From: Proteiniphilum propionicum
Lineage (GTDB): Bacteria > Bacteroidota > Bacteroidia > Bacteroidales > Dysgonomonadaceae
Direction: 5' to 3'
DNA: 64,000 bases
Assembly: GCF_022267555.1 (NCBI RefSeq)
Contig: NZ_CP073586.1
Coordinates: 2,285,501-2,349,500 of the forward strand
The translations under genes were made by a program, and so were the position numbers. Numbering within the stretch: position 1 is the first letter of the stretch; every line of letters begins with the position of its first letter. The notes beneath the pieces were generated by a model. That model worked only from the letters and a program-made list of their open reading frames with translations. It ran no database searches and was not told the DNA's origin. Below, in pieces: positions 8,900-49,967 of the stretch.

Positions 8900-9637
8900 A
8901 AATAAGCTTTTATGCTTAACTCTGTGTCCTGGCTAAGTTAGTAATTCCAAGGTATCTGTAGTGATGTTCCTGGTAAACTAACTACGAAGTTAAACAAAAG
9001 TTTCAAATCATTCCTTATGGAGACGTTTATTTTATACCTGGTCATTCCCGGCAGGATTAATTTCCTACAATTGGGGAGATATGGCAAGTCGTGTGAACAG
9101 CGATTTCGCCAGAACTTCTCGAAGGATTTTGATTGGCTGGAGTTTAACTTGTCTTTGTCTGACAAGGTATTAACCGGAGATCGCAAGGCTATTGCCATTG
9201 ATCCCAGTTATATATCCAAATCCGGAAAGAATACCCCCTGGATTGGTTACTTCTGGTCGGGTGCAGCCGGTCAGGCGAAAAGAGGATTGGAAATCCTGGG
9301 AGTAGGCCTTATCGACATTGATAACAAGGATTGCATAAGTCTACAGGCCGTTCAGACTCCGGACCGTCAAACCCTGGAGAATCGCGATGCGAACCTGATC
9401 GACTGGTACCTGCTGGTCCTTGAATCGATGCGGGATAAACTCCATCGGACAAGCCGTTACGTGGTTGCTGATGCCTACTTCGCAAAGAACAACTTCGTTA
9501 CGGGTCTGCAGGAGATGAAGTTTGATCTGGTCAGCCGTTTCAGGTGTAAGCTACCCCTTTTTAGGACAGTCTTTGATTAGACTGCTAAATTAGTTATTTA
9601 TGTATACAATGTTATGATGTCGGACAGATTTTTGATA

Positions 9638-9718
9638 AGCCACTCCCAATACTAGACGATACAGCGGGCAAGACTGCCCGCCAGGGCACTCGTCTTGGCC
9701 TTGACCGCTGTAGTGGCT
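9638..9718. other. Highly structured non-coding segment inside the IS407-group element
   Basis: Lying between orfB and the left terminal repeat, this segment has several exact complementary pairs: AGCCACT 9638-9644 with AGTGGCT 9712-9718; TACAGCGG 9660-9667 with CCGCTGTA 9705-9712; AGACGA 9654-9659 with TCGTCT 9690-9695; and GCGGGCA 9664-9670 with TGCCCGC 9675-9681. The second and third pairs cross (pseudoknot geometry), and the second and fourth share bases, so they are mutually exclusive. Function unknown; it could be an RNA or a folded single-strand DNA structure. Confidence 0.45.
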
Positions 9719-9747
9719 AGTGTTACCTTTGCTTGTCAAAACATCTG

Positions 9748-10551
9748 TCATACTGCTTCCTTTCGTTTTATCAGTTCTTCCCTATACTCAAAGGGTGTCA
9801 TGTTGTCCAACGCCTCATGGGGCCGTTCTTCGTTGTAGTCATTCCGCCAGGCTTCTGTCAGTTCCCTGACTTCAGACAAGTTTCGGAAAATGTATCTGTC
9901 AAGTACAGCCCTTCTGTAGCTTCCGTTGAAGCGTTCAATGTAGCCGTTCTGGGTGGGTTTACCAGGCTGAGTATACATAATGTTTATCTCATTGCCTTTA
10001 CACCAATCTTTGAACACCTGGGCGATAAACTCAGGACCATTGTCGCAGCGTATGTTCTTTGGTTTGCCATTAAGCCATAAGACCTTTTCCAGAACTTTGA
10101 TGACACGCTTTGCCGGCATGGACATCGATATCTCCTGTGTCACGGCAATCTTGCAGGCATCATCTATGATATTAAGAACACGGAATTGTCTTCCGCACTC
10201 AATCCTGTCACTGACAAAGTCAATGGACCAGGTAACATTGGGCTCTTTAGGCATAACCAGAGGATTCTTCACTCTTGCAGGCAGACGTTTCTTCAAACGG
10301 CTTCGCTTCTCATAGTGCATTGCCTTGTAAACCCTGTAAACCTTCTTGTGGTTCCATGTCTTACCCTCACGTCTCAGCCTTGAATAAATCTTCCAGAAGC
10401 CATCACCGAAGTTGGCGGCAGCACGGATTGCGTCTTCAACTTCAGTGTCATCTTTCTTGTCAGTATAATAGAAGTAGGAGCGATGGATGTCCATCAGCTT
10501 GCACGCCCGAGAGATGCTTATACCATATTCTTCCACTATATCTCCTGCCAA
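9748..10551 (-). CDS. IS407-group transposase orfB (DDE integrase core)
   Basis: A 267-residue integrase-core protein with WSIDFVSDRIECGRQFRVLN (first Asp), IRCDNGPEF (second Asp) and the Glu in NGYIERFNGSYRR, a complete DDE triad of the IS407 type. It ends in the usual NEERPHEALDNMTPFEY. It is made by -1 frameshifting from orfA at an A8 run on the coding strand (10578-10585 on the + strand), giving an orfAB fusion. No lesion is seen, so the element may still be mobile. Confidence 0.9.
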   Translation of the reverse strand: MAGDIVEEYGISISRACKLMDIHRSYFYYTDKKDDTEVEDAIRAAANFGDGFWKIYSRLRREGKTWNHKKVYRVYKAMHYEKRSRLKKRLPARVKNPLVMPKEPNVTWSIDFVSDRIECGRQFRVLNIIDDACKIAVTQEISMSMPAKRVIKVLEKVLWLNGKPKNIRCDNGPEFIAQVFKDWCKGNEINIMYTQPGKPTQNGYIERFNGSYRRAVLDRYIFRNLSEVRELTEAWRNDYNEERPHEALDNMTPFEYREELIKRKEAV

Positions 10552-10571
10552 TTCCTTCTTTACCTCGGGCT

Positions 10572-10859
10572 CTAGAGTTTTTTTTCGATGACCTCCTTCA
10601 GTATCTTGTTGTCAAGTGCAAGGTCAGCATACATCTGTTTCAACGTGCGGTTCTCATCTTCAAGCTCTTTGAGACGTTTAACCTGACTGATCTCCATTCC
10701 ACTATACTTGGACTTCCAATTATAAAGGGTAGCCCTGGATATATTGTAGTCACGAGCTACAACTGCGGCATCCACCCCACTTTCAAGTTGATGGACTGCC
10801 TTTACCTTCTCTGACTCACTGTGTACTTTTTTTTTCATTTTATTTCCTATGCCAAACAA
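10572..10859 (-). CDS. IS407-group transposase orfA
   Basis: A 95-residue protein with an N-terminal helix-turn-helix (SESEKVKAVHQLESGVDAA, then YNISRATLYNWKSKY) and a leucine-zipper C-terminal part. It is expected to bind the element ends. The first ATG is at 10859; MKKKVHSESEK, eight codons in, is another possible start. The gene ends at an A8 slippery run where ribosomes can shift into orfB. Confidence 0.85.
   Translation of the reverse strand: MFGIGNKMKKKVHSESEKVKAVHQLESGVDAAVVARDYNISRATLYNWKSKYSGMEISQVKRLKELEDENRTLKQMYADLALDNKILKEVIEKKL
10578..10585 (-). promoter_or_regulatory. Slippery A8 frameshift site between orfA and orfB
   Basis: Eight consecutive T on the + strand (A8 on the coding strand) lie exactly at the end of orfA. 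This is the typical place for programmed -1 frameshifting that produces the IS3-family orfAB transposase. Confidence 0.65.
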
Positions 10860-11240
10860 AGTTAATAATTTTGTCTAACTCGGAACTGTCCTACAAATAG
10901 GGAAGGTTACACAGGGATGACGCCGCACTCTATTATCCAACACTGCAGAAACCAACGGGCAAGAAAGGCAGACCTAAACTCTACGACGGAAAGATTGACA
11001 TGGCCAACCTGGATACAACCAGAGTGCAAAAGATCAATATTGATAACGGTGATCTCTACACCTTGATAGCCTATTCAAAATCTCTTAAACAGATGGTCAG
11101 GCTTGTCGTCTGGTATTCCTAAGATGGAAAAAAACCAAAACTGTTCTTCTCTACCGATCCTAAGATGAGCGGGAAGGATGTCATAGAGTATTACCGCACC
11201 CGTTTTCAAATCGAGTTTTGCTTTTATGGGAAGCAAATCG

Positions 11241-11327
11241 TTATGGGAAGTAGAAGTATTGTTTACACTCTACATAGTTGATTTTCCAGAATGTTTTCAA
11301 TCAACTTCACATAATTACTGTCCATAA
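11241..11327. repeat. Imperfect inverted repeats at the left end of RIT-1
   Basis: TTATGGGAAGT at 11241-11251 faces ACTGTCCATAA at 11317-11327 (9 of 11 bases pair), and between them AGTTGATT pairs with AATCAACT. The outer arms resemble the AATATGGGGAGTG / CACTCCCCATATT arms found in the ends of RIT-2, so they may be recombinase-binding sites. TTATGGGAAG also occurs, one base different, about 16 bases further left. Confidence 0.4.
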
Positions 11328-11374
11328 TATTATATTTGAGGCAAGGCATAAGCCCCAACTTAATATCATTGTTT

Positions 11375-12613
11375 ATGGAAGAAAAAGTAACTATCTATGA
11401 GTTGATTGACAGATGCATCGCTTATTTCAGAGACCATTGTTACACTGAACAGCGGATCAGCAGGTACAGGAGTCTTTGGCGAGCCTGCATCCTTCGTTTC
11501 ATGTCCGACAAGGGCATCAAGTATTATTCTCCATCTGTTGGAGAAGAGTTTGTAACCACGTGCCATTTCAACGGCAATGTGCGTCATCATGAACGAGAAA
11601 AGATACGCAGTGTACAGGTCGTTGATGACATGCTGACCATAGGGCGAATCAGGTTGAGATGTCTCAAGCCGGTACATCATGCTCTACTCGGTGAGATTGG
11701 GGGAGAGATGGAGAAACTCATCACCCATCTAACGAACCTGCGCCGCAGTGAGACTACGCTAAAGGATTATCGTTTGTACTTGAGTGAGTTCCTTGCTCAT
11801 CTCACAGCACATAACGTTCGTTGTGTGAGGGAGATAACAGAATGGCATATACTTGTATTCGTATCGTCGCATCCGACGAACAAGGTAAATATTGTATCTG
11901 CACTTCGGGTACTTTTCCGTTTTTGGATGCAGAAGGGAGTGGTAGATGGACACTTTGACGAATTATTTGACACATATAAGGTCAGGCATCCCGAGCGCAT
12001 TCCCTCGTTCTATGCGAAAGAAGAGATCAGACGTGTTGAGGAATCACTCTCCCGCAGCAGTAATGTTGGCAAACGTGATTATGCAATGGTACTGTTGGCT
12101 TCACGTCTTGGATTGAGGGCATCAGATATAGCAAACTTGCAATTTGCCAATCTTGATTGGGATAACAATGTCATCTCACTCAGGATGCAAAAAACGCAAA
12201 AGAGTATCGAGTTGCCTTTGATTGCAGATGTCGGCAATGCGATTATCGACTATCTGCGACATGGAAGGCCAAAGTCCGAGTCGCAGCACATATTTTTATC
12301 CTGTCGCGCTCCGTTTAGGGCAGCGACCAATCACACAGTATGCTCTGCCATTAATCGTGCAATCTTGAAATCCGGAATCGACACGGGTGGTAAACATCAT
12401 GGGCCCCATGCCCTACGCCACTCTCTTGCCACCGCAATGCTTGATGCAGGCACACAGATACCGATAGTATCTGAAACGTTGGGACATCGCAGTACGCAGA
12501 CAACATTGACATATTTGAAAATCGACATTTCATCGCTTCTAAAATGCGCATTGCCTGTAACACCTGTGTCCGATGGCTTCTATATGCAGAGAGGAGGTGC
12601 TTTCTATGGCTGA
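11375..12613 (+). CDS. Tyrosine recombinase, first of trio (RIT-1 A)
   Basis: A 412-residue site-specific recombinase. The catalytic domain has the first Arg in SRLGLRASDIANL, HALRHSLATAMLDAG with HxxRH, and LGHRSTQTTLTYLKID with the GH pair and nucleophile Tyr, so all key residues are present. The N-terminal half is a core-binding region. I chose ATG 11375 (MEEKVTIYELID); an earlier TTG at 11336 is in frame. The stop overlaps the start of the next gene by 8 bases (ATGGCTGA). It closely matches the first gene of RIT-2 in its motifs (both have STQTT). Confidence 0.85.
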   Translation: MEEKVTIYELIDRCIAYFRDHCYTEQRISRYRSLWRACILRFMSDKGIKYYSPSVGEEFVTTCHFNGNVRHHEREKIRSVQVVDDMLTIGRIRLRCLKPVHHALLGEIGGEMEKLITHLTNLRRSETTLKDYRLYLSEFLAHLTAHNVRCVREITEWHILVFVSSHPTNKVNIVSALRVLFRFWMQKGVVDGHFDELFDTYKVRHPERIPSFYAKEEIRRVEESLSRSSNVGKRDYAMVLLASRLGLRASDIANLQFANLDWDNNVISLRMQKTQKSIELPLIADVGNAIIDYLRHGRPKSESQHIFLSCRAPFRAATNHTVCSAINRAILKSGIDTGGKHHGPHALRHSLATAMLDAGTQIPIVSETLGHRSTQTTLTYLKIDISSLLKCALPVTPVSDGFYMQRGGAFYG

Positions 12614-13610
12614 GCAATTCCATTACAACAGTGTGTTGGCTCCGTATATGAACCAACTGATCAGAATAAAAAATTCTGCCGGCATCAGTGCATTGCGCAC
12701 AAAATGGATACTAAAGGAGTTTGACGATTATGCCAGTGCTTATCGACTTACTGACCCACACATATCCGAGGAGTTCATTACCGAATGGCGCAAAACGCGA
12801 AAAGCCGATTGTGACAGGACACTCTATGCAAAATACTCTGTCTGGTCACAGCTCACGACATTAATGTGCCGCAGAGGATGTTCCTGCTTTATACCATGCC
12901 TGCCAAAGCAGCCAAAACCGAATTTTGCTCCCACCATCTTTACAGACGAGCAGATAAAGGCCATATTTGATGCGGCAGACAAATACCGATTGTATGACAT
13001 ACGCATGGGAACGGCACTCATATCCATGCCTGCGCTGCTGCGACTGATGTACGCAACCGGCATGCGGGTATCAGAAGCACTTTCCATAAGAAATTCCGAT
13101 GTGCATCTTGACGAGCATTACATCCTATTGCGCAAGACCAAAAACGGCAGTGAACGGATTTCACCTTTGGGTGATGAAATGACCAAAGTCCTGGCAGAAT
13201 ATATCTCATACCGCAATGCCATGCCATTGGCACATGTCGCAGAAGACAGCGGACTGCTGTTTGTGAAATCCGACGGAACGGGCATCTCTCCCAATGCTGT
13301 ATATCAGCATTTTAAGAAATTGCTTGTCGAATGTGGCATACCACACAAGGGAAACCACATGGGACCACGGGTGCATGACCAGCGCCACACCTATGCCGTA
13401 CATGCGCTGGTACAGATGAGCCGCATGGGAATGGACTTGTACGCAAGTTTACCTATCCTCTCTGCAAACCTTGGTCATCATTCGTTATCTGCAACGGAAC
13501 AATATGTGCATCTCACATGTGCCATGTATCCGGAACTGGAAGAGCAGTGTTCCCCGATTAATGTTTTCGTATATCCGCAAATATGTAAAGCCTATGACTA
13601 CGACAACTGA
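12606..13610 (+). CDS. Tyrosine recombinase, second of trio (RIT-1 B)
   Basis: A 334-residue recombinase starting at ATG 12606 (MAEQFHYNSVL), inside the end of gene A. It shows MYATGMRVSEALSI (first Arg), VHDQRHTYAVHAL (HxxRH) and LGHHSLSATEQYVHLT (GH and nucleophile Tyr). All catalytic residues are present and no lesion is seen. It overlaps the third gene by 17 bases at its end. Together with A and C it is expected to act on the ends of the RIT element; individual roles within trios are not established. Confidence 0.85.
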   Translation: MAEQFHYNSVLAPYMNQLIRIKNSAGISALRTKWILKEFDDYASAYRLTDPHISEEFITEWRKTRKADCDRTLYAKYSVWSQLTTLMCRRGCSCFIPCLPKQPKPNFAPTIFTDEQIKAIFDAADKYRLYDIRMGTALISMPALLRLMYATGMRVSEALSIRNSDVHLDEHYILLRKTKNGSERISPLGDEMTKVLAEYISYRNAMPLAHVAEDSGLLFVKSDGTGISPNAVYQHFKKLLVECGIPHKGNHMGPRVHDQRHTYAVHALVQMSRMGMDLYASLPILSANLGHHSLSATEQYVHLTCAMYPELEEQCSPINVFVYPQICKAYDYDN

Positions 13611-14433
13611 TTTTGCAAAGCACCTGAGTCGTTTCTTTTCAGACTATCTGACACACCAGCGTAATGTGAGTGCGAACACGATATCGTCATACAGGGATAC
13701 GTTTGTCCAATATATTGATTACATGAAGAATGAACGTGGCATATCCGTTGACAGACTGTTATTGAAGCATCTCACCCGTGAGAATGTACTCGGTTTTCTT
13801 GCATGGCTCATTGATGTTAAAAATGTATCGCCGACCACACGCAACTACCGTCTTGCAGCAATACATTCTTTCTGTTCATATTTGCAATATGCTGTCATTA
13901 GTATGATGGATCAGTGGCAGAACATCCTTGTCATCAAAGCAATGAAGAGTGATGCACGTAAACTGAACTACTTATCGGTAGAGGGTGTCAAGTTGCTGTT
14001 GGCGCAACCTGATACATCCACGTGGAACGGCAGACGTCATCTTGCCATTCTCTCTCTGATGTATGACACCGCTGCCCGTGTTCAGGAGATTGCAGATCTT
14101 ACCGTTGACAGCGTCCGCATCAATCATGAACCATATACCATATGTTTGTATGGCAAAGGTCGTAAAGCGAGAATAGTGCCGCTTGTCAAAGAACAGGTTG
14201 CGATACTTAGATCGTATATGGAGGAGAACGAATTGAACAACAGCAACTTGGCTGCTTCACCTCTATTCTTCAACAACCGACATGAGAAACTTACGCGTAA
14301 GGGCATATCTTACATACTAAAGGCCTATGTCGGTATGGCACGGAAAGAATCACCCGAGCTCATTCCCGAGAACATAAGCTGTCACAGTATACGTCAATAT
14401 GTAGAGCGCTACAATATGGGGAGTGAAGAATAA
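13594..14433 (+). pseudogene. Tyrosine recombinase, third of trio (RIT-1 C), cut at HxxR
   Basis: The frame starts at ATG 13594 (MTTTTDFAKHLSRFFSDYL) and reads as a normal recombinase through MYDTAARVQEIADL and up to CHSIR (Arg at about codon 267). After this arginine the frame enters the terminal repeat of RIT-2 and gains twelve foreign residues, QYVERYNMGSEE, before a stop. The second His of HxxRH, the GH pair and the nucleophile tyrosine are missing, so the protein should be inactive. The same twelve residues end the truncated gene at 18967-20118 on the other strand. Confidence 0.85.
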
Positions 14434-14483
14434 AAAGGATTGATATTCTATGATTTATTAATAAAACACTCCCCATATTTATA
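14392..14483. repeat. RIT-2 terminal inverted repeat, left copy
   Basis: Pairs with 18917-19008 over 92 bases with three mismatches (89 of 92). Within the repeat are a perfect 13-bp inverted pair, AATATGGGGAGTG and CACTCCCCATATT, and an outer near-palindrome around TGTAGAGCGCTACA. The two-arm arrangement looks like a recombinase core and binding sites. Confidence 0.85.
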
Positions 14484-14493
14484 TAGTCAATGC

Positions 14494-15522
14494 CTACCTG
14501 CTTAAATTATTTAGCCACTGCATAAGGTTTTCATCTTCATTCCATTTGGGCATTTCATGTGTATAAAGTTCCTTATAGGATTCTTCTAAAGCTTTACGTT
14601 TCATTTCACTATCTGCACGAGCATATACTTCAGTCGTTGAAACATTTGAGTGACCTAGAAAATCCTTGATATATATCAAGTTAATGCCTGATTTCAACAT
14701 TCCGACGGCTTTAGAATGGCGAAGTACGTGCGGTGTAACAGGAAAATTCACCGTGAATTCAATGTCTTTTCTGGCCATTTCAACATACCGCTTCAATATA
14801 AAGGAGATTCCCCACCGCGTTAACGATTGATGTTTTTGATTACAAAATACCGGGATGTCAGATAGTGCTATTCCCCAGGAATATCTTTTATGATCTTCCA
14901 GATATCCGGTTAACAGATCCTTTACTCTTCCTAATATCGGTACAAGCCTGGTTTTATTACCTTTCCCATGAAGTGTTATAACGGCTGGAGTATTCAATCT
15001 TATATCTTTCATTTTTAGATCTGCAATTTCTTGTACTCTTGCGGCGCTGTCATACATCAGTGTTAATAATACCAAATCTCGTTTTCCTTGTTTTGTCCTA
15101 ATATCAGGTTGCTGAAAAAGTATCTTTAGTTCATCTTCAGTCAGATAAGGTACGATTGTCTTCGCAGTTTTTCCAGGTAGGATTCCAATAATTCTTTGTA
15201 CTTCAAACATTCTTTCGGGTAATTCTTTCTGTACGTATTTAAAAAAGCCATGAATGCAAGATAAACGCTGATTTCTTGTCGTAATAGAACATTTACGCTC
15301 AGCTTCCAACCAATCCAGATAATTAATAATAAGTTCTTTAGTGAACAATGAGATTGTTATCCGGTCAGGTGCTATTTTCAGCTTTTGTTCACAGAATAAA
15401 AGGAAAAGCCGAAAAGTATCCCTGTAAACGGCAATTGTATTGGTACTTAGTTTTTTCTCTCCTGATAAATATGTTGTCATAAAACGAGATAAATACCAGG
15501 CAAAATCGTTTGCTTTTTTCAT
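14494..15522 (-). CDS. Tyrosine recombinase, third of trio (RIT-2 C)
   Basis: A 342-residue recombinase with all catalytic parts: MYDSAARVQEIADLK (first Arg), HGKGNKTRLVPI (lysine strand), HVLRHSKAVGMLKSG (HxxRH) and LGHSNVSTTEVYARAD (GH and nucleophile Tyr). It is the intact counterpart of the truncated C genes on both sides. The start overlaps the stop of gene B by ATGA. At the HxxRH codons it reads CGCCAT, whereas the cut neighbouring genes read CGT followed by the element's CA. Confidence 0.9.
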   Translation of the reverse strand: MKKANDFAWYLSRFMTTYLSGEKKLSTNTIAVYRDTFRLFLLFCEQKLKIAPDRITISLFTKELIINYLDWLEAERKCSITTRNQRLSCIHGFFKYVQKELPERMFEVQRIIGILPGKTAKTIVPYLTEDELKILFQQPDIRTKQGKRDLVLLTLMYDSAARVQEIADLKMKDIRLNTPAVITLHGKGNKTRLVPILGRVKDLLTGYLEDHKRYSWGIALSDIPVFCNQKHQSLTRWGISFILKRYVEMARKDIEFTVNFPVTPHVLRHSKAVGMLKSGINLIYIKDFLGHSNVSTTEVYARADSEMKRKALEESYKELYTHEMPKWNEDENLMQWLNNLSR

Positions 15523-16440
15523 AGATGCCTCCCTTCTGGAATAACATATCCCAACGTAGCTTCCGTCTTGCTTATTATATCCGGATAAAGATCTGCTGTC
15601 AAACGAAGATAATATTGTGTCCCCCTAAAATCAGCGTGATCCAAATAAACGCTGAGATAAGGGAAAAGGTTAGTGATATCTTTTCCCTCTAAAACCCATC
15701 GTTTCAAGCAATGAATGCAGTATAAATGGCGGAGATCATGGATTCTTGGTCCGTGACCGGAATGCGGGATGCCCGCAATCCACAAGTATTCGCGGAATCT
15801 CCGGTATGCAGTACTTCTATCAAGACGTCTGTTTAACGGACTTTTAAAATAATATGTATTCTCATCGCTGAACAGGTGTATTTCTTTGTTTAATATTATA
15901 CACCTGTTTACCAAACTTGTTGCCATTGGGATTTTCCGGTCTTTATTGTTTTTAGACTGTATTATATTTAATGTTCCGTCAACAGTATCAACATCTTTAA
16001 GCTTTAGGTTGAGCGCTTCCGACAATCGTAAACCACAACCATAAATCATACGAAACATTAATCTGTCAATCATGTGACGGTTGCTCAACGGATGTGGAGG
16101 GCAATTATCCACCGCCTGAAAAAAAAGGCTGAGTTCCTTTTCGGAAAAAATATATGGTATACAAGTGTGTTATGGAGGAGCCGACTTTACAGGACAGATA
16201 TAAGAGGAATATCCGATACTGCATAAGTATTGAGCCAATCCTCTTAATATTTTTTCCTTTTTATATCTTGTAGAAGCCTTTTCATAATGTATACCGTAAC
16301 AAAAGTTATTAACCAACTCATCATTTAACTCATCGCCGTTAAAACCGGTATCAAAACAATACTGATCAAACATTTCCATCATTCTCCCTTCAGTCTCGTA
16401 TTTAAAGCCCGACATACGCTTCATTAGCAGGTATTACTAA

Positions 16441-17589
16441 GTTCAAGATAGAAGTGCAAAAGATTTGATTACATTACACTTCTTATCTTAATTGTTTTTT
16501 TCCAAAATCCCCTTTCAAAAGTGCTTAAGGGGTTTTGAAAAAAACAATTAGTCAATCAGCAACATAAAAAAATAAAAAAGGAGACCGAAGTCTCCCTAAA
16601 ATTAACTATTATGTTGCTTATGAAAAAATACAAACAGTTAACTTCAGAACAAAGATATGCTATTTATTTAGGCTTACAAAACGGAACAAGCAAGTCTGAA
16701 ATAGCCAAGCAGATAAAGGTAAATATTTCTACGGTTTATAGGGAATTAAGCCGTAACAAAAACAAAACTGGAGGCTACTCATGGCGTTTGGCACAAGAGA
16801 TGGCCCAAGAGCGCAAAGAACGTTTACCGGGCAATAGATCGACATCGGAGTGGATTAAACAGAAAATAATCCGTCTCATTCGCAAAGATTGGTCGCCCAA
16901 ACAAATCAGCGGATATCTCGCAAAATATGATCAAATATCTATCTCTCACGAGACTATTTATCAATGGATCAGGCAAGATAAGAAATCGGGAGGAAACCTT
17001 TACAAGCACTGCCGCCACAAGCTCAAATACAGAAAAAAGACCCGTAGGTTCTGCCACTAACATACCCAACAGAAAAAGTATTCGCCAAAGGCCAAAAGAG
17101 GCCGACGGAAGCCGGTTTGGAGATTTTGAAATGGACACCATAATAGGAAACGGACAAAAGGAAATAATACTGACAATGACAGAAAGAAATACAAACTTTA
17201 TAATGATGAGAAAACTGCCTATGGGCAAAGACTCTAAGCAGGTTTGCAAGGAAGTCATTGCTATGTTGCTGCCTTATAAGGACAAACTGAAAACCATTAC
17301 AACAGATAACGGATCCGAGTTTGCAGCACACGAACTGATAACAAAAAAGTTGAAAGTACCGGTATATTTCACTGATCCTTATTCATCGTGGCAAAAAGGA
17401 GCTGTTGAAAATGCCAATAAATTAATCCGGCAATACATCCCAAAAGGAGCAACATTTAAAGATTATTCTGATGAGAAAGTAAAAGAAATACAGCATAAAC
17501 TAAACAGAAGACCAAGAGAAAAATTAGACTTTAGCAATCCTAAAATAGAGTTTTACAAAAATTATTACTAAATTGCACTTGCTGGTTGA
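16441..17589 (+). mobile_element. IS30-family insertion sequence
   Basis: The element is about 1.15 kb, inserted early in gene B of RIT-2 in the opposite orientation. Both ends, read inward, carry TCAA and then AAGTGCAA (left near 16443-16459, right near 17575-17589), a short imperfect terminal repeat. Exact boundaries and target duplication are uncertain. Confidence 0.7.
16611..17571 (+). pseudogene. IS30-family transposase, frameshifted
   Basis: The N-terminal part (MKKYKQLTSEQRYAIYLGLQ, HTH with KSEIAKQIKVNISTVYRELSRNK) runs to about 17040. The frame then shifts by one base in an A6 run, and the DDE core continues in another frame: FGDFEMDTIIG (first Asp), ITTDNGSEF (second Asp) and WQKGAVENANKLIRQYIPKG (Glu). 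IS30 transposases are normally one reading frame of about 320 residues, so this is probably a loss of function. ATG 16611 and ATG 16620 are both possible starts. Confidence 0.8.
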
Positions 17590-17637
17590 CTCTAGGATTC
17601 CTTGATTTGTACAGCAAATTTGCTTTTCCATTTATAA

Positions 17638-18888
17638 TTACTCATGACATACCTCCTCCGGATCAATTATGCAGTTTCGTAGTCCATTCATATCAATTCT
17701 CAAATAAAATCTGGTGGTCTGGGTGCTTTGATGCCCAAGTGCCTCGGAGATAACCGGGAGCGGGGTGCCTTTTTCAAGTAAAGCAAGTGCTAATGTACTT
17801 CTCAAAGAATGAAGACCATGTTTTTGATCCTGCATTCCTTCAATCTTAGCTTTAACCATATGCCTTGTCAACATTTTATGTAAGCAGTTATGATTTGCAA
17901 ATCCATCATATGGTGCTCTATGACGAATAAATATAATATCAGAATCAGTTTGAGGCCGTCCATTTTTCAAATAATCGATAATTGCCCATCCGACATCTTC
18001 AAGTAACGGCAATTCGAGTCGTTGCTTTGTCTTTTGCATGGTAATGGCAATTAGTTTACGGTTCCAGTTTAAGTCCGGTAGTTTCAATGCACGTATATCA
18101 CCAACACGTAAACCAAGTCTTGCTACCAGTAAAAGAATTGCATAATCTCTTTTCCCCTTCGGATTCTGGCGATCAATTGATTCGAGTAATTTCTTCACAT
18201 CAGTTTGTTTCCAGACTGAAGGGATAAATGGGTTGCGTGTAATCTTCATGTGAGGAAGGTGAGTGCATAAATCATGTTCAATAATTCCCTCTTGATAAAG
18301 AAACTGGAGATAATTTCGTAATCTGAATACTGTAGAAGCAATATACCTTGAACTAAAATCTTTTTGAGATGACAAAAATTTTAGGATATGTATACTTTCT
18401 ATTGCGGAAGAAGAGGTAAGCCCCTCTTTTTCCATGAAGACAAGGAACTTATGCAGCGACCAAAATATTGATGCTTCACCCATAGGGGAGTAATTCCTGG
18501 CACTACATGCTTTCTTAAATAATTCATAATCTGCTCTGAATACATCGGGGCATTCAATCGGTTTTCTTCCATACATTCGCTTCTTTTTATGCAAACCATG
18601 TTCTGTATAATCTGAAAGGACCTTCAAAGCCCTCATGGAAGTTACGAAAGGACGCGTGTTTAAAGGACATTTATCATACAAATCATTTATGATAATGTCG
18701 AATTTAAATCGCATAAAATCAATCGCAAGTGCATTGGAATAAGATTCCACATTTTTCCCTTCAATGAATTTTTTCAGATTATTGTAGCAATGGCGGTAGC
18801 TACCGATAGTATAAGCAGCATATTTTTGCTGCTTTAGATCTGATAATACACAATCCATGAGCTCATGGATATTCAAATTTTGTTTCAT
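17638..18888 (-). CDS. Tyrosine recombinase, first of trio (RIT-2 A)
   Basis: A 416-residue recombinase. The N-terminal half has two helical, SAM-like segments; the catalytic half has ARLGLRVGDIRALKL (first Arg), QKTKQRLELPL (lysine strand), HGLHSLRSTLALALL (HxxR, with Ser in place of the usual second His) and LGHQSTQTTRFYLRID (GH and nucleophile Tyr). It is the paralogue of the first gene of RIT-1. Translation of gene B starts inside its last codons. No lesion is seen. Confidence 0.88.
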   Translation of the reverse strand: MKQNLNIHELMDCVLSDLKQQKYAAYTIGSYRHCYNNLKKFIEGKNVESYSNALAIDFMRFKFDIIINDLYDKCPLNTRPFVTSMRALKVLSDYTEHGLHKKKRMYGRKPIECPDVFRADYELFKKACSARNYSPMGEASIFWSLHKFLVFMEKEGLTSSSAIESIHILKFLSSQKDFSSRYIASTVFRLRNYLQFLYQEGIIEHDLCTHLPHMKITRNPFIPSVWKQTDVKKLLESIDRQNPKGKRDYAILLLVARLGLRVGDIRALKLPDLNWNRKLIAITMQKTKQRLELPLLEDVGWAIIDYLKNGRPQTDSDIIFIRHRAPYDGFANHNCLHKMLTRHMVKAKIEGMQDQKHGLHSLRSTLALALLEKGTPLPVISEALGHQSTQTTRFYLRIDMNGLRNCIIDPEEVCHE

Positions 18889-18916
18889 ACTAAAAATTTA
18901 TTTAATAAATAATCAG

Positions 18917-19008
18917 TATAAATATGGGGAGTGTTTTATTAATAAATCACAGAATGTCAGTCCTTTTTATTCTTCACTCCCCATATTGTAGCGCTCTACA
19001 TATTGACG
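18917..19008. repeat. RIT-2 terminal inverted repeat, right copy
   Basis: Inverted partner of 14392-14483 (89 of 92 bases match). It supplies the last twelve codons and stop of the truncated recombinase gene that arrives from the right. Confidence 0.85.
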
Positions 19009-20118
19009 GAATTGATGCGAATGAAAATCCAAAGGCATCTCATAACATATTTGATGAGCCGCTTCAGCATATTTTGATAATTGTTTACGGATTGTCTCTT
19101 GGGTCAACTTGCAGTTTGGACCTTTATTATTGGAGTAGAATAAGTATCGCGCATCATCATCTGACGGATGATACTTGTGGATATAGGTAGTTAAATTGGA
19201 AACTATATTTTTAGGAATGTACTGGCTTCTCCTGACGCTTCCTTTCCCAAGTATCGACACAAAAGGCCTGTCCTTAACGTTTAGATGTAAATCCCGTAGT
19301 CGTATTGAAAGGACTTCGTCTATCCGGCATCCCGTAGTGTACATCAGCGACATGAGCACATAATCCCGCATGCCAGTAAATGTTCTTATGTCTGGGATCG
19401 AGAGTAATGTTTTCACTGCATTTTTCGACAAACTTTTTACTTGAGGTTTATCGGTTTTGAAAAAAGCGACATCCCTTGAAGATAGGTAAATGGAAGAATA
19501 TCGCAAATTTCTCCTGGAAATAAATTTCAGGAAAGGCCTTAAACATGAGAGTCTTACATTGCAGCTTTGCGGCTTGATTTTTTCTATCGCATACTGATGC
19601 CTTAGTTCTCTTGCATACGCGATGGCTGTATTCTGTTTATACCAACAGGCACGGAACTGGTCTGAAAGCCATTTGTTTCTGTGGTAATTGTCATGCTCAT
19701 CCGGGAAAAGCACCTTATGCCCGGGTAGCAACTTCTCGATGGAAAAGTCATAAGATTCAAGTAATTCTCTCATGCTATCATGAAGGACAACGAAGTGTTC
19801 CACGTGTCCTTTCGTTTGCCTGACTGTAATAACACCGGTCTTAAAGTCGACGTCGCATCGATTTAACATCCGAGCCTCTAATACGCGAAGGCCTGTTGAA
19901 TAAAGTAAACGAAAGATAACCGGCACAACTTTCTTCCTTAGACGTTGGGATAGAGAGTTGTTAGCAGTAAGTCCATCGCAGTTTTCAAAGAAACATGAAA
20001 GTTCTTGTCTTGTAAAATAATGAGGTACAAAAATGTTTCCTACATATGGAGGCTTCGGAGGGATATCTAATGAAGCCGGATTAAGAATACTATTAACGTA
20101 CCTGAGAAAGGGAAGCAC
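18967..20118 (-). pseudogene. RIT-3 remnant: in-frame fusion of second and third recombinases, cut at HxxR
   Basis: The 383-residue frame contains two recombinase pieces. The first has LLYSTGLRVLEARML (first Arg of a B-type enzyme) and breaks off at ARELRHQYAIEK. The second begins around NVRLSCLRPFLKFISR, has MYTTGCRIDEVLSIRL and ends FHSHQFR, followed by QYVERYNMGSEE from the RIT-2 repeat. A deletion has therefore removed the C-terminal end of B and the N-terminal end of C and left the frame open. Neither half retains a nucleophile tyrosine. The annotated start is a GTG. Confidence 0.75.
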
Positions 20119-26909: not shown

Positions 26910-28016
26910 ATGATGTGTAAAAAAATAATTTTCTTATTGTGTTTTCTCCCTTTCTATTTATTATCGGCTCAAACAAATGAGTTGAAGAAATTTCCGAAGG
27001 GCTGTAGTCCAAAACAAGTCGGTAATCGTTTGGCATATAATTTTGTAAATGCCCGGCATGATCTGTATGCAGGTAGATATATCCACTATGCCGAAGTATG
27101 TACCTGGAACGGAGCTCTTGATTATGCACTGAAAACAAACGACAGAGAACTTATTAAACAATTACAAAATAGATTCGAACCTTTTTTCACACGCGAAAAA
27201 GTATTGTTACCTCCTATGAATCACGTAGACTACAATATGTTTGGTAGTCTTGCACTCAAACTCTATCAAATTACCAATGACAAAAGGTATCTGGAGATAG
27301 GACTGGCTTATGCCGATAGTCAATGGGAAGTGCCGGTGAATGCAAAACCGGAAGAAAAGGACTGGGCCGAAAAAGGATATTCCTGGCAGACTCGTATGTG
27401 GATTGATGATATGTATATGATTACCGTTATACAAAATGAAGCATATAAAGTTACAGGTGACCCAAAGTATATTGACCGGGCTGCAAAGGAAATGGTTCTT
27501 TACCTCGATGAGTTACAGCGTCCCAGCGGCCTTTTCTATCACGCACCCGATGTCCCTTATTACTGGGCTCGAGGAGACGGATGGATGGCGGTTGGTATGG
27601 CCGATTTACTACGTGAACTTCCCAAAAATCACAAGAACTATGTGCGTATTATGGAAGGTTATCAGGTTATGATGAAGAGTTTGAAGAATCATCAAAGACC
27701 AGACGGCATGTGGAATCAACTGATTGATGAACCGGATTTCTGGCCGGAAACTTCCGGTACAGCCATGTTCACCTACGCCTTTATCATTGGTGTTCAACAG
27801 GGATGGTTAAATGCTTCAGAATATGGTTCTGCCGCACGTAAGGCATGGTTGGCAATGGTTCCCTTCATTGATGAGCGAAATAATGTGACAGAAGTTTGTG
27901 TAGGTACTGGTAAAAAGAATGATAAACAATATTATTATGATCGTCCACGTCTAGCCGGTGATTTTCACGGACAAGCACCGTATCTATGGTGTGCTGCAGC
28001 CTTATTAAGAAAATGA
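26910..28016 (+). CDS. GH105-type unsaturated glycoside hydrolase, first paralogue
   Basis: A 368-residue secreted protein with an (alpha/alpha)6-barrel pattern. MWIDDMYMITVIQNEAY contains the catalytic Asp region of GH105, with LFYHAPDVPYYWARGDGWMA and DGMWNQLIDEPDFWPETSGTA further on, all typical of unsaturated rhamnogalacturonyl hydrolases. These remove the 4,5-unsaturated uronic acid left by a polysaccharide lyase. A signal peptide precedes (FLLCFLPFYLLSAQ). Two adjacent ATGs, 26910 and 26913, are possible starts. It shares operon spacing with the next gene (49 bases) and is related to the genes at 28066 and 48459. Confidence 0.85.
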   Translation: MMCKKIIFLLCFLPFYLLSAQTNELKKFPKGCSPKQVGNRLAYNFVNARHDLYAGRYIHYAEVCTWNGALDYALKTNDRELIKQLQNRFEPFFTREKVLLPPMNHVDYNMFGSLALKLYQITNDKRYLEIGLAYADSQWEVPVNAKPEEKDWAEKGYSWQTRMWIDDMYMITVIQNEAYKVTGDPKYIDRAAKEMVLYLDELQRPSGLFYHAPDVPYYWARGDGWMAVGMADLLRELPKNHKNYVRIMEGYQVMMKSLKNHQRPDGMWNQLIDEPDFWPETSGTAMFTYAFIIGVQQGWLNASEYGSAARKAWLAMVPFIDERNNVTEVCVGTGKKNDKQYYYDRPRLAGDFHGQAPYLWCAAALLRK

Positions 28017-28065
28017 ATTAATTGTTTTTTATAAAGACCATTTAAATTAAAAAAATTGTAATCGA

Positions 28066-29217
28066 ATGAGCAAAAAAATCTTGAGCGGGTGTACACTTCT
28101 CTATTTATTTTTAGTTTCAAATCTGTATGCCAGTATCGGTTCAAATATTGAAACTCTTGCAGTGAAAATAGAGAGTCACGACCTTACAGAATTTCCAAAA
28201 GGAGCCGATCCAAAAGAGATCGGAATAAAACTTACTGAGCGATATATCAGAACTATCGATACGCAGGCTCCCCGCGTAAATTATCCATATGTCTGTACAT
28301 GGTTGGGAGCGTTCCGGTTTACAAAAACTATCGGAGATGATAATTTATTCAATCGATTATTAGAGAGATATAATAATATCTTCTTCAATACGGGTTCGGA
28401 TAATCTTGTCCCTCCTGCAAATCATGTGGACAACAACGTCTTCGGATCCGTTCCTCTGGAAATTTATAAAACAATGAAGGAAGATAAATATCTTAAAATG
28501 GGATTGAAATATAGTGATTTGCAATGGGAGTTACCGAATGATCCCCGAATGTCGGAGATAAAATGGCATGACCAAGGTTATTCCTGGCAGACACGTATAT
28601 GGATTGACGATATGTATATGATTACAACGATACAATCCCAAGCTTATGTGGTGACGAATGAACGAAAATATATCGAGCGAACTGCCAGGGAAATGATACT
28701 GTATCTCGACGAGATACAGCGTCCCAACGGACTATTCTACCATACACCTGATGTGCCTTTTTTTTGGGGAAGAGGAAATGGTTGGATGGCTGTCGGCATG
28801 GCAGATTTATTGAAAGTGTTACCTCAAGACAATCCAGGCAGGGAGAGAATTGAAAAGGCTTATAAACTGATGATGAAAACCTTGTTGAATTACCAGGCTG
28901 AAGATGGTATGTGGAGACAGCTCGTAGATGATAAAACCTCTTGGAAAGAGACATCTGCTTCTGCGATGTTTACATATGCTATGATCGTGGGCGTAAAGAA
29001 CGGTTGGTTGGATGAAGTCACTTATGGTACCGCTGCCCGTAAGGCATGGCTTGCCCTTTTGACTTATCTGAACGATGATGACAATTTAAGGAATGTCTGT
29101 GAAGGAACCAATGCATACAATGATTACCAGTATTATATCAATCGTCGGCAGAATACCGGTGACTTACATGGACAAGCTCCTCTTTTGTGGTGCGCAGACG
29201 CGCTTCTTCATAAATGA
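28066..29217 (+). CDS. GH105-type unsaturated glycoside hydrolase, second paralogue
   Basis: A 383-residue secreted protein with the same landmarks as its neighbour: WIDDMYMITTIQSQAY, LFYHTPDVPFFWGRGNGWMA, and DGMWRQLVDDKTSWKETSAS. Its body is much closer to the third GH105 at 48459 than to the first; both share DPKEIGI-x-LTERYIRT and PRVNYPYVCTWLGAF. It has a Sec-type signal peptide and no extra N-terminal domain. It probably acts on unsaturated oligosaccharides in the periplasm. Confidence 0.85.
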   Translation: MSKKILSGCTLLYLFLVSNLYASIGSNIETLAVKIESHDLTEFPKGADPKEIGIKLTERYIRTIDTQAPRVNYPYVCTWLGAFRFTKTIGDDNLFNRLLERYNNIFFNTGSDNLVPPANHVDNNVFGSVPLEIYKTMKEDKYLKMGLKYSDLQWELPNDPRMSEIKWHDQGYSWQTRIWIDDMYMITTIQSQAYVVTNERKYIERTAREMILYLDEIQRPNGLFYHTPDVPFFWGRGNGWMAVGMADLLKVLPQDNPGRERIEKAYKLMMKTLLNYQAEDGMWRQLVDDKTSWKETSASAMFTYAMIVGVKNGWLDEVTYGTAARKAWLALLTYLNDDDNLRNVCEGTNAYNDYQYYINRRQNTGDLHGQAPLLWCADALLHK

Positions 29218-42965: not shown

Positions 42966-44273
42966 ATGATGAATGCAATCCAATGTGGTTTCCTATTAGG
43001 CTTTTGGTTACTTTTTTTCCCCGTTTCGTCCTGCGGGAGCAGTGGTGACATCCAGGGAGAGGAAATACCAGATAAGAATGAAGAGGAATTGGTAGATCCT
43101 GTAATCGGACTTGTTGCCAAAAAAACTGCTAAGGCGAATGAATTGGAACTTGCCTGGAGTAACCCTCCCAATACCGCATCAGTTGAAATCTCTTATTTAC
43201 GGGAAGATGATGATGAGGCTAGTAACACGATTATCAATGTAAGGGTGTATAGCGAAAAAAAAAGCAGCTACCTGATAAAATTATCGAAATATGGAACATA
43301 TCAAATTGGAGTGGTAGCTATCAATCATTATGGAAGACGTTCCGAGAAAGTTACAATTACTGCTACCCCTGCTAAAGAAGATGCGCCACCTTCATTTGAG
43401 ATCATTCACAACACACTGCCGATTGCAGACCCTCATGTGTTATATCACAACGGTAAATACTATGCTTACGGTACCCGTATCAATGGTTTCGAAGTATATA
43501 TCTCGGAGGATCTCGAGCATTGGAGGCGGAACGAAAGCCTTGCACTGCCCCCGGAGAACTCCTGGGGAACAAGATGGTTCTGGGCGCCTGAAGTCTATTA
43601 CATAGCGTCCAAGAACAGATTTTTCATGTTTTATTCTGTAGATGAACACATCTGTGTTGCTTCAGCCACCAGGCCGGAAGGACCGTTTGTGCAGGATGAA
43701 AGAAGGCCGATTGTACCCAATGAGAAAGGGATCGACACTTCGTTGTTTATTGACGATGATGGTACACCTTATCTTTATTATGTGCGTTTTACTGATGGGA
43801 ACGTGATATGGGTGGCTGAAATGAATGATGACCTGAAGAGTATAAAATCTGAAACACTCACAAGATGCATCACAGCTTCAGAACCCTGGGAGAGAATCCA
43901 GGGTAAAGTTGCTGAAGGCCCCTCAATATTGAAGAGGGGGAATACGTACTACCTGATTTATTCAGCCAATCATTTTGAAAGTAAAGATTATGCGGTGGGC
44001 TATGCCACGTCGAACTCTCCTATGGGGCCTTGGATTAAGTACAGCGGAAATCCGATCCTGCGCAGAGACAAACCAGCAGCATCCGGCTTGATTGGTACTG
44101 GTCATGGTGCACCTTTCGTGACAGCAGATGGGAGTTATAAGTATATCTATCATGCCCATTCGAGCATGAGCAGCGTGGGACCCCGTACCTCGTATATCAA
44201 CGATTTGAACTTTTCGGAAGATGGGGAAATTACCATAACCGGAAAACCAATCAGACCGAAGGTTATAAAATAA
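42966..44273 (+). CDS. GH43 enzyme with N-terminal DUF4959-like domain
   Basis: A 435-residue lipoprotein (VSSCGSSG near residue 23). Residues 38-130 form the fibronectin-like domain also found at 46858, 48459 and 51097 (landmarks ANELELAWSNPP, SVEISYL, YGRRSEKVTITATP). The GH43 propeller follows, with Asp in PIADPHVLYHNGKYY, Asp in IDTSLFIDDDGTPYL and Glu in KVAEGPSILKRGNTYYLIY, so the triad is complete. It is 10 bases after the previous GH43. Substrate is unknown; alpha-arabinofuranosidase or galactanase activity are both possible in this family. Confidence 0.8.
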   Translation: MMNAIQCGFLLGFWLLFFPVSSCGSSGDIQGEEIPDKNEEELVDPVIGLVAKKTAKANELELAWSNPPNTASVEISYLREDDDEASNTIINVRVYSEKKSSYLIKLSKYGTYQIGVVAINHYGRRSEKVTITATPAKEDAPPSFEIIHNTLPIADPHVLYHNGKYYAYGTRINGFEVYISEDLEHWRRNESLALPPENSWGTRWFWAPEVYYIASKNRFFMFYSVDEHICVASATRPEGPFVQDERRPIVPNEKGIDTSLFIDDDGTPYLYYVRFTDGNVIWVAEMNDDLKSIKSETLTRCITASEPWERIQGKVAEGPSILKRGNTYYLIYSANHFESKDYAVGYATSNSPMGPWIKYSGNPILRRDKPAASGLIGTGHGAPFVTADGSYKYIYHAHSSMSSVGPRTSYINDLNFSEDGEITITGKPIRPKVIK

Positions 44274-46857: not shown

Positions 46858-48399
46858 ATGAAAAATAACAACGCTATATTGTTCTTTGTAGGATGGATTC
46901 TCTTTTCCTTACCATTGGTAATTTCATGTGCTGGTGATGATCCTATACCGGATGACAGTGGCAAGGATAACGGAGGAGGAAATGAGGTCATAACCGTTTC
47001 TCCCGTAAATGATCTGGCAGTGGAAGAAACAGGGAAAGCAAATGAACTGTACGTAACTTGGACTTACCCTTCAGAAGCCCTTTCCGTTGAAATATCCTAC
47101 CTGCCGGAAGGAGAAGATGAAGCCGGAGCAGTGAATAACAATATACGCCGGACTACAGGTGATAAAGGTTCTTTCCTGATAAAAGTATCGGAACACGGGA
47201 CCTATATTGTGGGGGCAGTAGCCATTGACAATTACGGAAACCGCTCGGAGAAAGTAACTGTCAAAGCCACTCCCACGAGGGAAGAAGATGTGCCGAAAAC
47301 CCTTTTTATAGAACGGGCCGATATACTTATGAGTTCGCTTATAGACCTCTGTTTCGGAAAGTCGCCCCGTGATTGCTGGAATACCAGGTATCCCAATGCG
47401 ACAGGCCCCTATTGGGATGGAGATGCTGTGGTATGGGGACAGGGGGCCGGCCTTTCTGGATTCGTGGCATTGCGGAATGCTGCTATTGGTACTGAATATG
47501 AGGCGAAATACACTGCTATGACGGATCGTATGTACAACAGTATTAACAGTTTTATCACTACCGATAATAACCTGAAAGCCTATGCCGTTTATCCGCAGAA
47601 CGGGAATCAAAGATTCTATGACGATAATGTATGGATAGGTTTGGATATGGCCGAGTTATATAGACAAACCGGAGAAAACCATTTCCTTGAAAAGGCTGAA
47701 ATGGTATGGGATTATCTAATGGTAGGAAATACAAGTTCGGCAGGAGGTGGCATTCTCTGGAGAGAAATACCGGCATACAGCAACAAACACACCTGTTCCA
47801 CGGCACCGGCGGCAGTACTGGGATGTAAACTCTATGAAATAACAAAAGAGGAAAAGTATCTCAGTAAAGCTAAAGAATTGTACGCTTGGCTAAAGCAGTA
47901 TTTGCAGGATCCTAGTGACCATCTCTTTTATGACAATATCACCCCGGGGATGGTGGTGGATAAAGCCAAATATAGTTATAATTCAGGCCAGCCGATGCAG
48001 GCTGCCTGCTTGCTCTACAATATCACCGGCGAACAAAAGTACCTGGAAGATGCCAGCCAGATAGCAATTTCTGCCCACCGGAGGTGGTTCTCTTTATATA
48101 ATTCCAAAGAGCTGGGTGAAGAATTCTACCGGATCAATGGAGACCATGCATGGTTCTTTGCCATTATGTTCCGGGGATTTATTGAACTGTACAGGATCGA
48201 TAACAGAAGGACTTATATTAATTCATTTGAAAAGAGTATGTTGCAGGCATGGGAGTCGGAATGCCGTGATAGGGCTACCAATTTGTTGAGTAACAGGTAT
48301 TTTGTAAATCAGACCCAAACCTCCTGGGAAGTATTGCACGAAGGAGGATTTGTGGAGATGCTTGCGCAACTCGCGGCATTGGAAAAAGAGGGGCTATAA
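46858..48399 (+). CDS. GH76-type enzyme with N-terminal DUF4959-like domain
   Basis: A 513-residue lipoprotein (VISCAGDD near residue 24). The shared DUF4959-like domain covers about residues 45-140. An (alpha/alpha)6 barrel follows with RFYDDNVWIGLDMAELYRQTG, where the adjacent Asp pair is the catalytic signature of GH76 alpha-1,6-mannanases. YPNATGPYWDGDAVVWGQGAG and WEVLHEGGFVEMLAQL also fit. Known GH76 enzymes act on alpha-1,6-mannan, which fits the GH130 upstream better than a purely pectic substrate. It has a signal for surface anchoring. No lesion is seen. Confidence 0.78.
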   Translation: MKNNNAILFFVGWILFSLPLVISCAGDDPIPDDSGKDNGGGNEVITVSPVNDLAVEETGKANELYVTWTYPSEALSVEISYLPEGEDEAGAVNNNIRRTTGDKGSFLIKVSEHGTYIVGAVAIDNYGNRSEKVTVKATPTREEDVPKTLFIERADILMSSLIDLCFGKSPRDCWNTRYPNATGPYWDGDAVVWGQGAGLSGFVALRNAAIGTEYEAKYTAMTDRMYNSINSFITTDNNLKAYAVYPQNGNQRFYDDNVWIGLDMAELYRQTGENHFLEKAEMVWDYLMVGNTSSAGGGILWREIPAYSNKHTCSTAPAAVLGCKLYEITKEEKYLSKAKELYAWLKQYLQDPSDHLFYDNITPGMVVDKAKYSYNSGQPMQAACLLYNITGEQKYLEDASQIAISAHRRWFSLYNSKELGEEFYRINGDHAWFFAIMFRGFIELYRIDNRRTYINSFEKSMLQAWESECRDRATNLLSNRYFVNQTQTSWEVLHEGGFVEMLAQLAALEKEGL

Positions 48400-48458
48400 A
48401 ATTAAACGAATTAAATCAACTCCCGTATGGGATATATAAGCAACTAAAGCGAAGACAT

Positions 48459-49937: not shown

Positions 49938-49967
49938 TAAAAATCTAAAAACAAAAAAATTAATGGT

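Follow-up and report, generated by a model that had tools for sequence, protein, structure and literature searches.

A RIT element of Proteiniphilum propionicum lying between two recombinase genes cut at the same Arg-His codons: target preference of its clade and a possible origin of the mirror arrangement

How does a mobile element come to lie between the 5' halves of two different genes that face each other and are interrupted at the same codon pair? The question is raised by a 64,000-nucleotide stretch of Proteiniphilum propionicum DNA (NCBI RefSeq:NZ_CP073586.1, positions 2,285,501 to 2,349,500; the window), in which a recombinase-in-trio (RIT) element, RIT-2, separates the truncated third genes (C genes, encoding RitC) of two other such elements, RIT-1 on the left and RIT-3 on the right. 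RITs, in print since 2009 (cited in PMC10214605), are described in the accessible parts of the literature as three overlapping tyrosine recombinase genes, A-B-C, of about 3.5 kb, with an inverted repeat of 28-29 bp and an overlapping palindrome (PMC3414803, PMC2864759); terminal repeats of 34 bp have also been given (PMC10214605), and RitA, RitB and RitC form defined subfamilies, RitA having two core-binding (CB) domains and RitC an extra C-terminal helix (PMC8138268).

Coordinates (Table 1), Pfam and a repeat search agreed with the preliminary description of the locus, in which RIT-2, with inverted ends of 92 bp, lay between two convergent RitC genes cut at the same codon. Each flank is the 5' half of a RitC gene; the two genes are different, converge on RIT-2 and are both interrupted at the Arg of HxxR/H, the slash marking the junction here and below. 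Over its length, the half belonging to RIT-1 shared 52% and 43% identity with two full-length RitC encoded in this genome. The right flank, previously called gene C of RIT-3, is indeed a RitC cut at HQFR, but it forms the C portion of a decayed ORF of 383 amino acids in which B and C are fused, with two PF00589 stretches, and is not a separate gene; this part was 43% and 36% identical to the RitC interrupted at two other loci (L213 and L107). Both cut open reading frames (ORFs) continue into the 92-nt repeat as QYVERYNMGSEE, so that the shared foreign tail noticed earlier is supplied by RIT-2. In both halves the PF00589 match reaches position 135 of 172, its final two residues coming from the repeat; since the match stops there, the halves are without the C-terminal part carrying the catalytic Tyr. 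In an alignment of 14 RitC, His 265 was invariant, and Arg 268 and His 269 were identical in all 13 sequences reaching them.

The two repeat copies of RIT-2 are 97% identical and were the sole inverted pair of at least 40 nt detected in the whole window; in the 3,906,720-bp genome (a single contig, 99.99% complete) the repeat gave only those two matches at E ≤ 0.001, so RIT-2 is present once. PF00589 was found in A, in the larger B fragment and in C, giving three adjacent tyrosine recombinase genes in one direction, and the A, B and C subfamilies were tentatively assigned by BLAST to trios of the same genome together with alignment. The terminal repeats contain a two-motif core that was present at both ends of 102 of the 155 trios surveyed below. 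Between the repeats no gene was recognised beyond A, B, C and the transposase of an IS30-type insertion sequence (IS), and the four-gene set of the SE and GInt elements, with its Srap/GinD-type fourth gene, was not encountered. The IS30-type element, at the 5' part of gene B, accounts for the length of 4.6 kb, the median being about 3.48 kb (85 RITs, counting duplicates, in which both ends were resolved and 100 bp of flank was available). Gene B is read in two frames, unlike that of a relative, L104, in which it is one frame; because of the insertion and the split gene, RIT-2 is probably inactive now. A palindrome overlapping the terminal repeat, present in L104, was found at neither end of RIT-2, which we read as the mark of the mirror form and not as exclusion from the RITs.

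The ends of RITs are laid out, to judge from their sequence, as a 6-bp spacer followed by a TTATG-type repeat, the spacer belonging to the target. CGTCA, earlier taken as the target, does represent an Arg-His site, but it lies outside the repeat proper as part of this spacer. The spacer reads NCGNCA or NAGGCA, i.e. N-(C/A)-G-N-C-A, an in-frame Arg codon plus the first two bases of the His codon, at each of the 16 junctions without palindrome and each of the 10 outer palindrome junctions that were lined up (the window's two junctions were printed two bases out of register in this line-up). Synonymous differences between the two ends of one insertion are frequent, as in L105 (CGT/CGG), L107 (CGT/CGC) and L109 (AGG/CGG), and an element that homes to a coding motif needs to tolerate such synonymous Arg codons.

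The target preference was surveyed in 80 loci obtained by a RitC alignment search from genomes of many phyla, in the best 31 of 79 loci from viral contigs (L223-L253), and in further stretches from the P. propionicum genome (8), relatives (20) and genomes reached via those loci (15). Among the 155 trios anchored on a C gene, a paired motif search resolved both ends in 102; the remaining 53 often ran into a contig end or had no gene A found, these causes being uncounted. Each flank was read alone up to the junction, and 88 labelled rows (84 different) with 13 target labels entered a maximum-likelihood tree of RitC. In the clade of RIT-2 (support 99/95), 15 of 17 rows were inserted in HxxR/H of tyrosine recombinases, as against 0 of 71 outside it (Fisher p 4e-15). 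All 13 labels required 23 changes on the tree, compared with a mean of 64.3 after shuffling, and 0 of 200 shuffles went as low. The members concerned are RIT-2 and L102, each with two flanks, and L103, L104, L105, L107, L108, L109, L110, L113, L118, L119, L127, L216 and L223; L213, likewise inserted in HxxR/H, stands outside the tree because its own C has a stop, as do three other probable members: L106 and L112, whose contigs end at the element, and L150, whose flank was not identified. A Pfam scan of 18 halves already read as recombinases placed the end of all 10 upstream halves at PF00589 positions 133-134 of 172 and the start of all 8 downstream halves at 133, while L108, L113, L216, the upstream half of L119 and the short upstream half of L110 were labelled by motif reading alone.

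A RitC was the victim in the window (C1 of RIT-1 and C3 of RIT-3), L104, L107, L109, L213 and L223, and wherever the victim belonged to a recognisable trio (7 genes) it was the C gene. The suggestion that RIT-2 targets trio C genes at HxxR therefore holds as a preference that includes RitC of other trios, but is too narrow, since the victims in ten elements (L102, L103, L105, L108, L110, L113, L118, L119, L127 and L216) are tyrosine recombinases not recognised as RitC of a trio; those of L102 (left) and L108 had a weak best BLAST match to a RitB. Taken together, the junctions make it highly probable that this clade follows an HxxR/H target rule. The clade is rare, since a RitC match at E ≤ 1e-60 was obtained in 9 of 393 genomes of the order, including that of P. 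propionicum, and one at 1e-100 in 3 of 391 genomes of the class around genome G492, including G492. Other RIT clades lay in other conserved motifs, many of them in mobile-element genes. From the motifs we take the targets other than HxxR/H, those of L101 and L111 included, to be IstB (its Walker A motif and further sites), IstA, IS66, the GTPQGG motif of group II intron reverse transcriptases, ParA, phage portal, PcfJ, PcfK, DUF4314, IS91, IS66 tnpB and IS4 genes.

Two loci offer parallels to that of RIT-2. Gene A, gene B and what is present of gene C are 79-81% identical between L104 and RIT-2, and L104 carries the palindrome that RIT-2 lacks, ATATGGAGAGCTCCCCATAT, in the form expected; beyond it follows the 3' half of a RitC starting R/HSKAMHLLQAG. 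The C gene of L104 stops matching at residue 243 and gives way to other sequence near the contig end, which leaves the second end unreadable. On megaplasmid pHG1 of Cupriavidus necator H16 (L320; NC_005241.1, 128000-150000), two outer trios in inverted orientation enclose an inner one (131433-134607); the outer trios are 99.87% identical over 3,119 bp and both have RitC cut at ITPHTLR/H. This is the same mirror of two RitC 5' halves as in the window, with a palindrome at neither junction. The truncated trios of pHG1 are mentioned in the accessible part of PMC3414803, there without the mirror reading.

A RIT normally has a palindrome of about 20 bp at one end only, and RIT-2 has none. An ordinary insertion runs from the 5' half of the target through spacer and repeat at one end, and through repeat, spacer, palindrome, spacer and the 3' half of the target at the other, so that the palindrome side holds the downstream part of the target and the plain side the upstream part, the direction of reading being that of the spacer strand. 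This held for all 8 one-palindrome elements of the clade that were readable at both ends (L105, L107, L109, L110, L118, L119, L127 and L223); the zero-palindrome members, RIT-2 and L102, have two upstream halves each. The same relation was seen when flanks were compared independently of gene names in the 78 elements that had 100 bp or more on each side (85 when duplicate names are counted): similarity mirrored in register occurred in 10 of the 16 elements that have no palindrome or two, and in 0 of the 62 that have one (Fisher 6e-9). Without L126 and L215, mirrored over about 100-130 bp to contig ends alone, p was 2e-7. The cut-off for the palindrome score was 6, and L148 (16 and 7) was set by eye to one palindrome, giving 62/16 instead of 61/17. 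Among the 16, RIT-2, L116 and L164 are mirrors by reading alone, for the mirror of L102 the register holds to within 9 bp, L083 consists of two fused RITs, the ends of L088 are doubtful, and L178, with a weak palindrome, is probably ordinary. L148, L154, L224, L226 and L252, flagged as mirrors by the script, had antiparallel or out-of-register matches and were not counted. Mirrors of two 5' halves without palindrome were L102, L099, L163 and L164 (the last two by their last codons) and pHG1; those with two palindromes and two 3' halves were L064, L082, L116 and L171. L090, tried as a RitC insertion, was rejected, being a PcfK-like mirror. On this sequence evidence it is very likely that the number of palindromes tells which target halves flank a RIT.

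The P. propionicum genome itself contains further examples. RIT-4 (L062) and a RIT-5 copy (L065) have a shorter repeat, [TTATG..]N7[TTATG..], with a near-perfect palindrome outside one repeat only, while in another RIT-5 copy, L063, the palindrome is on the right and the left end is gone. The three RIT-5 copies lie between halves of IS66-type transposase genes (AHIRR/ in L065). The copy L064 has palindromes on both sides; outward of them lie the 3' halves of two IS66 genes, which differ from each other and point away from each other. The mirror arrangement is therefore not peculiar to RIT-2. The RIT-5 copy of L063 (5550-6920) was without an A gene, and its gene B was separated from the 5' part of the IS66 gene by an IS3-type element. 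The several copies of RIT-5 in this genome, like the identical RitC found in more than one Lachnospiraceae contig, do no more than suggest that RITs are mobile.

Palindromes away from a RIT were also sought. Of 18 palindromes in five genomes, 17 adjoin a RIT repeat and the 18th is 8 bp from a contig end, none being solitary between two gene halves. In P. propionicum the RIT-5 palindromes occurred at 4 places, all at RIT ends, and a palindrome of the form predicted for RIT-2 was not found in this genome with up to 1 mismatch. Four Lachnospiraceae genomes had 14, of which 13 adjoin a recognised repeat, with one 8 bp from a contig end; outward of 12 of these 14 a ParA-like 3' half starts with GK, and L305 and L313 have other sequence. 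A solitary palindrome as the scar of a rearrangement was thus not found among these 18, a result that favours deletion, or loss of the partner, over an inversion in which both products are kept.

How the RIT-2 locus arose can be proposed from these observations. The preliminary description envisaged two insertions followed by recombination between inverted copies. As worded, that scheme is not supported, as a crossover in the body of the elements would swap the 3' halves and leave 5'/3' pairs; two 5' halves are obtained only if the exchange falls in the terminal repeat or core. Nor did the genome yield the matching 3' halves or the second RIT-2 copy that such a scheme predicts: whole-genome searches with RitC and with C1 (29 and 11 matches) gave no fragment starting R/H. 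Nine weak candidates for 3' halves were set aside; six lie in ORFs of 305-452 amino acids with their own HxxRH, L024 comes from the end of a split integrase that still has its HSLRH, and L027 and L029 are opposite-strand matches with open frames of 405 and 495 amino acids (judged by frames alone). We propose that the RIT-2 lineage integrates by site-specific recombination at the DNA for the Arg-His pair of HxxR/H. A circular form would carry at its junction repeat-palindrome-repeat and hence two mirror-image crossover cores; entry would use one core, and the second would stay intact beside the palindrome. RIT-2 would have entered gene C of RIT-1 first, and the leftover core would then have recombined with the HxxR codons of the downstream, convergent RitC of RIT-3 on the opposite strand. 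A single deletion would remove the palindrome and both 3' halves, leaving 5' half-RIT-2-5' half with one copy and no palindrome. The rearrangement should be a recombination at the end of the element, with adjacent deletion as its simplest form; deletion fits a genome in which one RIT-2 copy, no RIT-2 palindrome and no downstream half were found. Targeting of HxxR/H combined with a second-core deletion is, as a whole, the probable explanation of the locus, and the step of adjacent deletion here, taken by itself, stands at an even chance.

Why such a site should be used is a separate matter. The preliminary description saw an element that disarms competing trios. Disarming is a fair consequence of the cut but need not have been selected, a safe and common landing site explaining the cut equally well: a short DNA motif would be recognised that happens to be conserved in recombinase genes, and insertions in mobile genes would survive because they are harmless to the host. 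The balance tilts towards such landing-site bias alone, which denies an adaptive weapon only and not the mechanism. The placement of other RIT clades in unrelated conserved motifs, and of two members of the clade, L101 and L111, outside recombinases, agrees with it, yet the same data fit a selected effect on rivals. Loss of the struck recombinase would be a by-product, the benefit probably being a conserved, common landing site harmless to the host.

As to the rearrangement, an alternative that amends the scheme of the preliminary description is homologous recombination. With a RIT-2 copy in each of the two RitC, the left repeat of one copy could have recombined with the right repeat of its counterpart, and the partner product carrying two 3' halves would have been lost later. 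Repeats of 92 nt at 97% identity are long enough for some RecA-type exchange, and the reciprocal class that this exchange predicts, with two palindromes and two 3' halves, exists in the four elements named above. For RIT-2 it is nevertheless rather unlikely, as the element is single and no 3' halves were found, and some other mirrors have short or poorly matched repeats, those of L163 and L164 agreeing at 24 of 29 positions, a length too short for efficient homologous recombination; in L102 the repeats are 88 nt. Random insertion with unrelated IS rearrangement, or an assembly chimera, is highly improbable even in a region rich in broken mobile genes (IS3- and IS4-type, IS30 and RIT remnants), since one and the same codon pair is hit by the two cuts and in 15 of the 17 clade members, the same mirror occurs in L102 and pHG1, and the genome is one nearly complete contig.

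Against site-specific targeting followed by second-core deletion, the following has to be weighed. 1) L101, the second closest relative (67%), lies in what we take from its motifs to be an IS91-type gene, and L111 in a presumed IS66 tnpB-type gene; because of these two, the HxxR/H target is not absolute. 2) The inner trio of pHG1, found later and absent from the tree, is also at HxxR/H; its RitC shares only 33% identity with the one of RIT-2, and the target may thus extend beyond the clade. 3) The target labels were assigned by ourselves from the flanks, with seven rows entered as "other" and loci without readable flanks left out. 4) The mechanism is deduced from sequence, no circle, excision or integration having been observed. 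5) Homologous recombination between the terminal repeats of two copies would give the same palindrome pattern, including for the 92-bp repeat. 6) The two-palindrome mirrors (L064, L082, L116, L171) cannot arise from one copy by deletion and need exchange between copies.

Printed RIT insertions include IS66 tnpA, radC and a Tn6049-type transposase gene (PMC3414803, PMC2864759); the target rule, the spacer, the one-sided palindrome rule and the mirror arrangement do not appear in the accessible parts of these two papers. A 2023 comparison lists target specificity of RITs, and likewise their movement, as not formally tested (Table 1 of PMC10214605). SE and GInt, as described in the accessible parts of PMC10214605 and PMC5385486, resemble RITs in having several tyrosine recombinases, and SE also in that its inverted repeats are imperfect and a 6-bp spacer lies at the joint; they differ in their genes (IntA, Tfp, IntB and Srap; GinA-GinD), and a palindrome is unmentioned in the accessible parts of PMC10214605. 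Clade-wise motif targets, the HxxR target and the mirror rule were not found stated in a literature search outside which lay the main RIT survey (Ricker 2013, Plasmid), which may hold part of them. The RIT spacer resembles the coupling sequences of Tn916 and CTnDOT, spacers of 5-7 bp in which the partners need not match; to our knowledge, the targets of these elements are not recombinase coding motifs, unlike those of the RIT-2 clade. Homing introns and inteins, like this clade, use the most conserved active-site codons as landing sites, but they splice out and the protein stays functional, whereas a RIT insertion destroys it.

On balance we lean towards regarding RITs as a class of hyperparasites at catalytic or P-loop codons of core genes of mobile elements, with one motif per clade, that of the RIT-2 clade being the Arg-His pair of its own family, and with a symmetric double-core site that permits recombination with a second target and so gives mirror nests with a predictable palindrome count. 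If this is true, an inserted RIT that recombines again would delete or join whole mobile elements, a simple route for one mobile element to disable and weld others that would also account for the truncated trio array of pHG1. The clade-wise target rule, the codon-degenerate 6-bp spacer and a palindrome count that predicts the flanks make RIT integration directly testable.

Table 1. Coordinates of RIT-2, its ends and its neighbours in the window
Feature	Position	Strand	Remarks
RIT-1, host element on the left	11224..14391	+	left repeat at 11224 inside a presumed IS4-type transposase gene (..YYRTRFQIEFCF/)
RIT-1 genes	A 11336-12613, B 12573-13610, C 13588-14391	+	C cut at HSIR
RitC of RIT-1, 5' half only	13588..14391	+	cut at HxxR Arg codon, ends ..ENISCHSIR
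6-bp spacer ACGTCA, left junction	14391..14396	+	Arg codon CGT + CA
RIT-2	14392-19008	-	genes A, B and C on this strand, enclosed by inverted repeats; single copy
Left 92-nt repeat copy	14392..14483	+	RIT core repeat [ATATGTAGAG]CGCTACA[ATATGGGGAG] begins 14397, repeat proper beginning there at ATATG; outside palindrome absent
RIT-2 gene C	14494..15522	-	342 amino acids, full-length tyrosine recombinase
RIT-2 gene B, broken	15519..16433	-	open frames 15522-16169 and 16173-16433; start displaced by IS30-type insert
IS30-family transposase of element inserted in RIT-2	16611..17571	+	two overlapping ORFs
RIT-2 gene A	17638..18888	-	416 amino acids, tyrosine recombinase
Right 92-nt repeat copy	18917..19008	-	core repeat ends 19003, repeat proper beginning there at ATATG; outside palindrome absent
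6-bp spacer CCGTCA, right junction	19004..19009	-	Arg codon CGT + CA
RIT-3 remnant	19009..20118	-	fused B-C ORF; RitC part ends ..FHSHQFR

The gene that houses RIT-1, which we take to be of the IS4 type from its motifs, is itself composite: this transposase gene (9017-11240) is split by an IS3-type element, and RIT-1 breaks its opposite end at a ..QIEFCF/ motif. A second RIT, adjoining the L104 element, was seen at a similar position in a similar gene. Elsewhere in the window, three diverged direct-repeat families (27355-28855, 43098-43370 and 47002-51516; 61-73% DNA identity, 273-300 nt) are probably paralogous genes.

Among the other clades, one (L120, L128, L133, L137, L138, L142, L179 and L322) splits a putative group II intron reverse transcriptase at GTPQGG; on the Rhodococcus plasmid NZ_CP070614.1, the halves of a split gene annotated in PLSDB with reverse transcriptase and intron maturase domains flank the trio. 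A supported clade from viral contigs (L232-L247; 8/8 labelled rows, 100/100) lies in phage genes at ..GGDLYLINGNMTKLxDAGAF/ and similar sites. We read these genes as portal protein genes, and RITs may inactivate phages. A further clade, from Lachnospiraceae and a viral contig (L159, L162-L165, L172 and L226; L302-L315), lies in a ParA-like P-loop (KGGVG/KTT), with several copies in some genomes and two zero-palindrome mirrors (L163 and L164). Finally, L083/L180 (G107:C42) has two back-to-back RitC, the left end being in an IstA-like and the right end in an IstB-like gene, and apparently consists of two welded trios.

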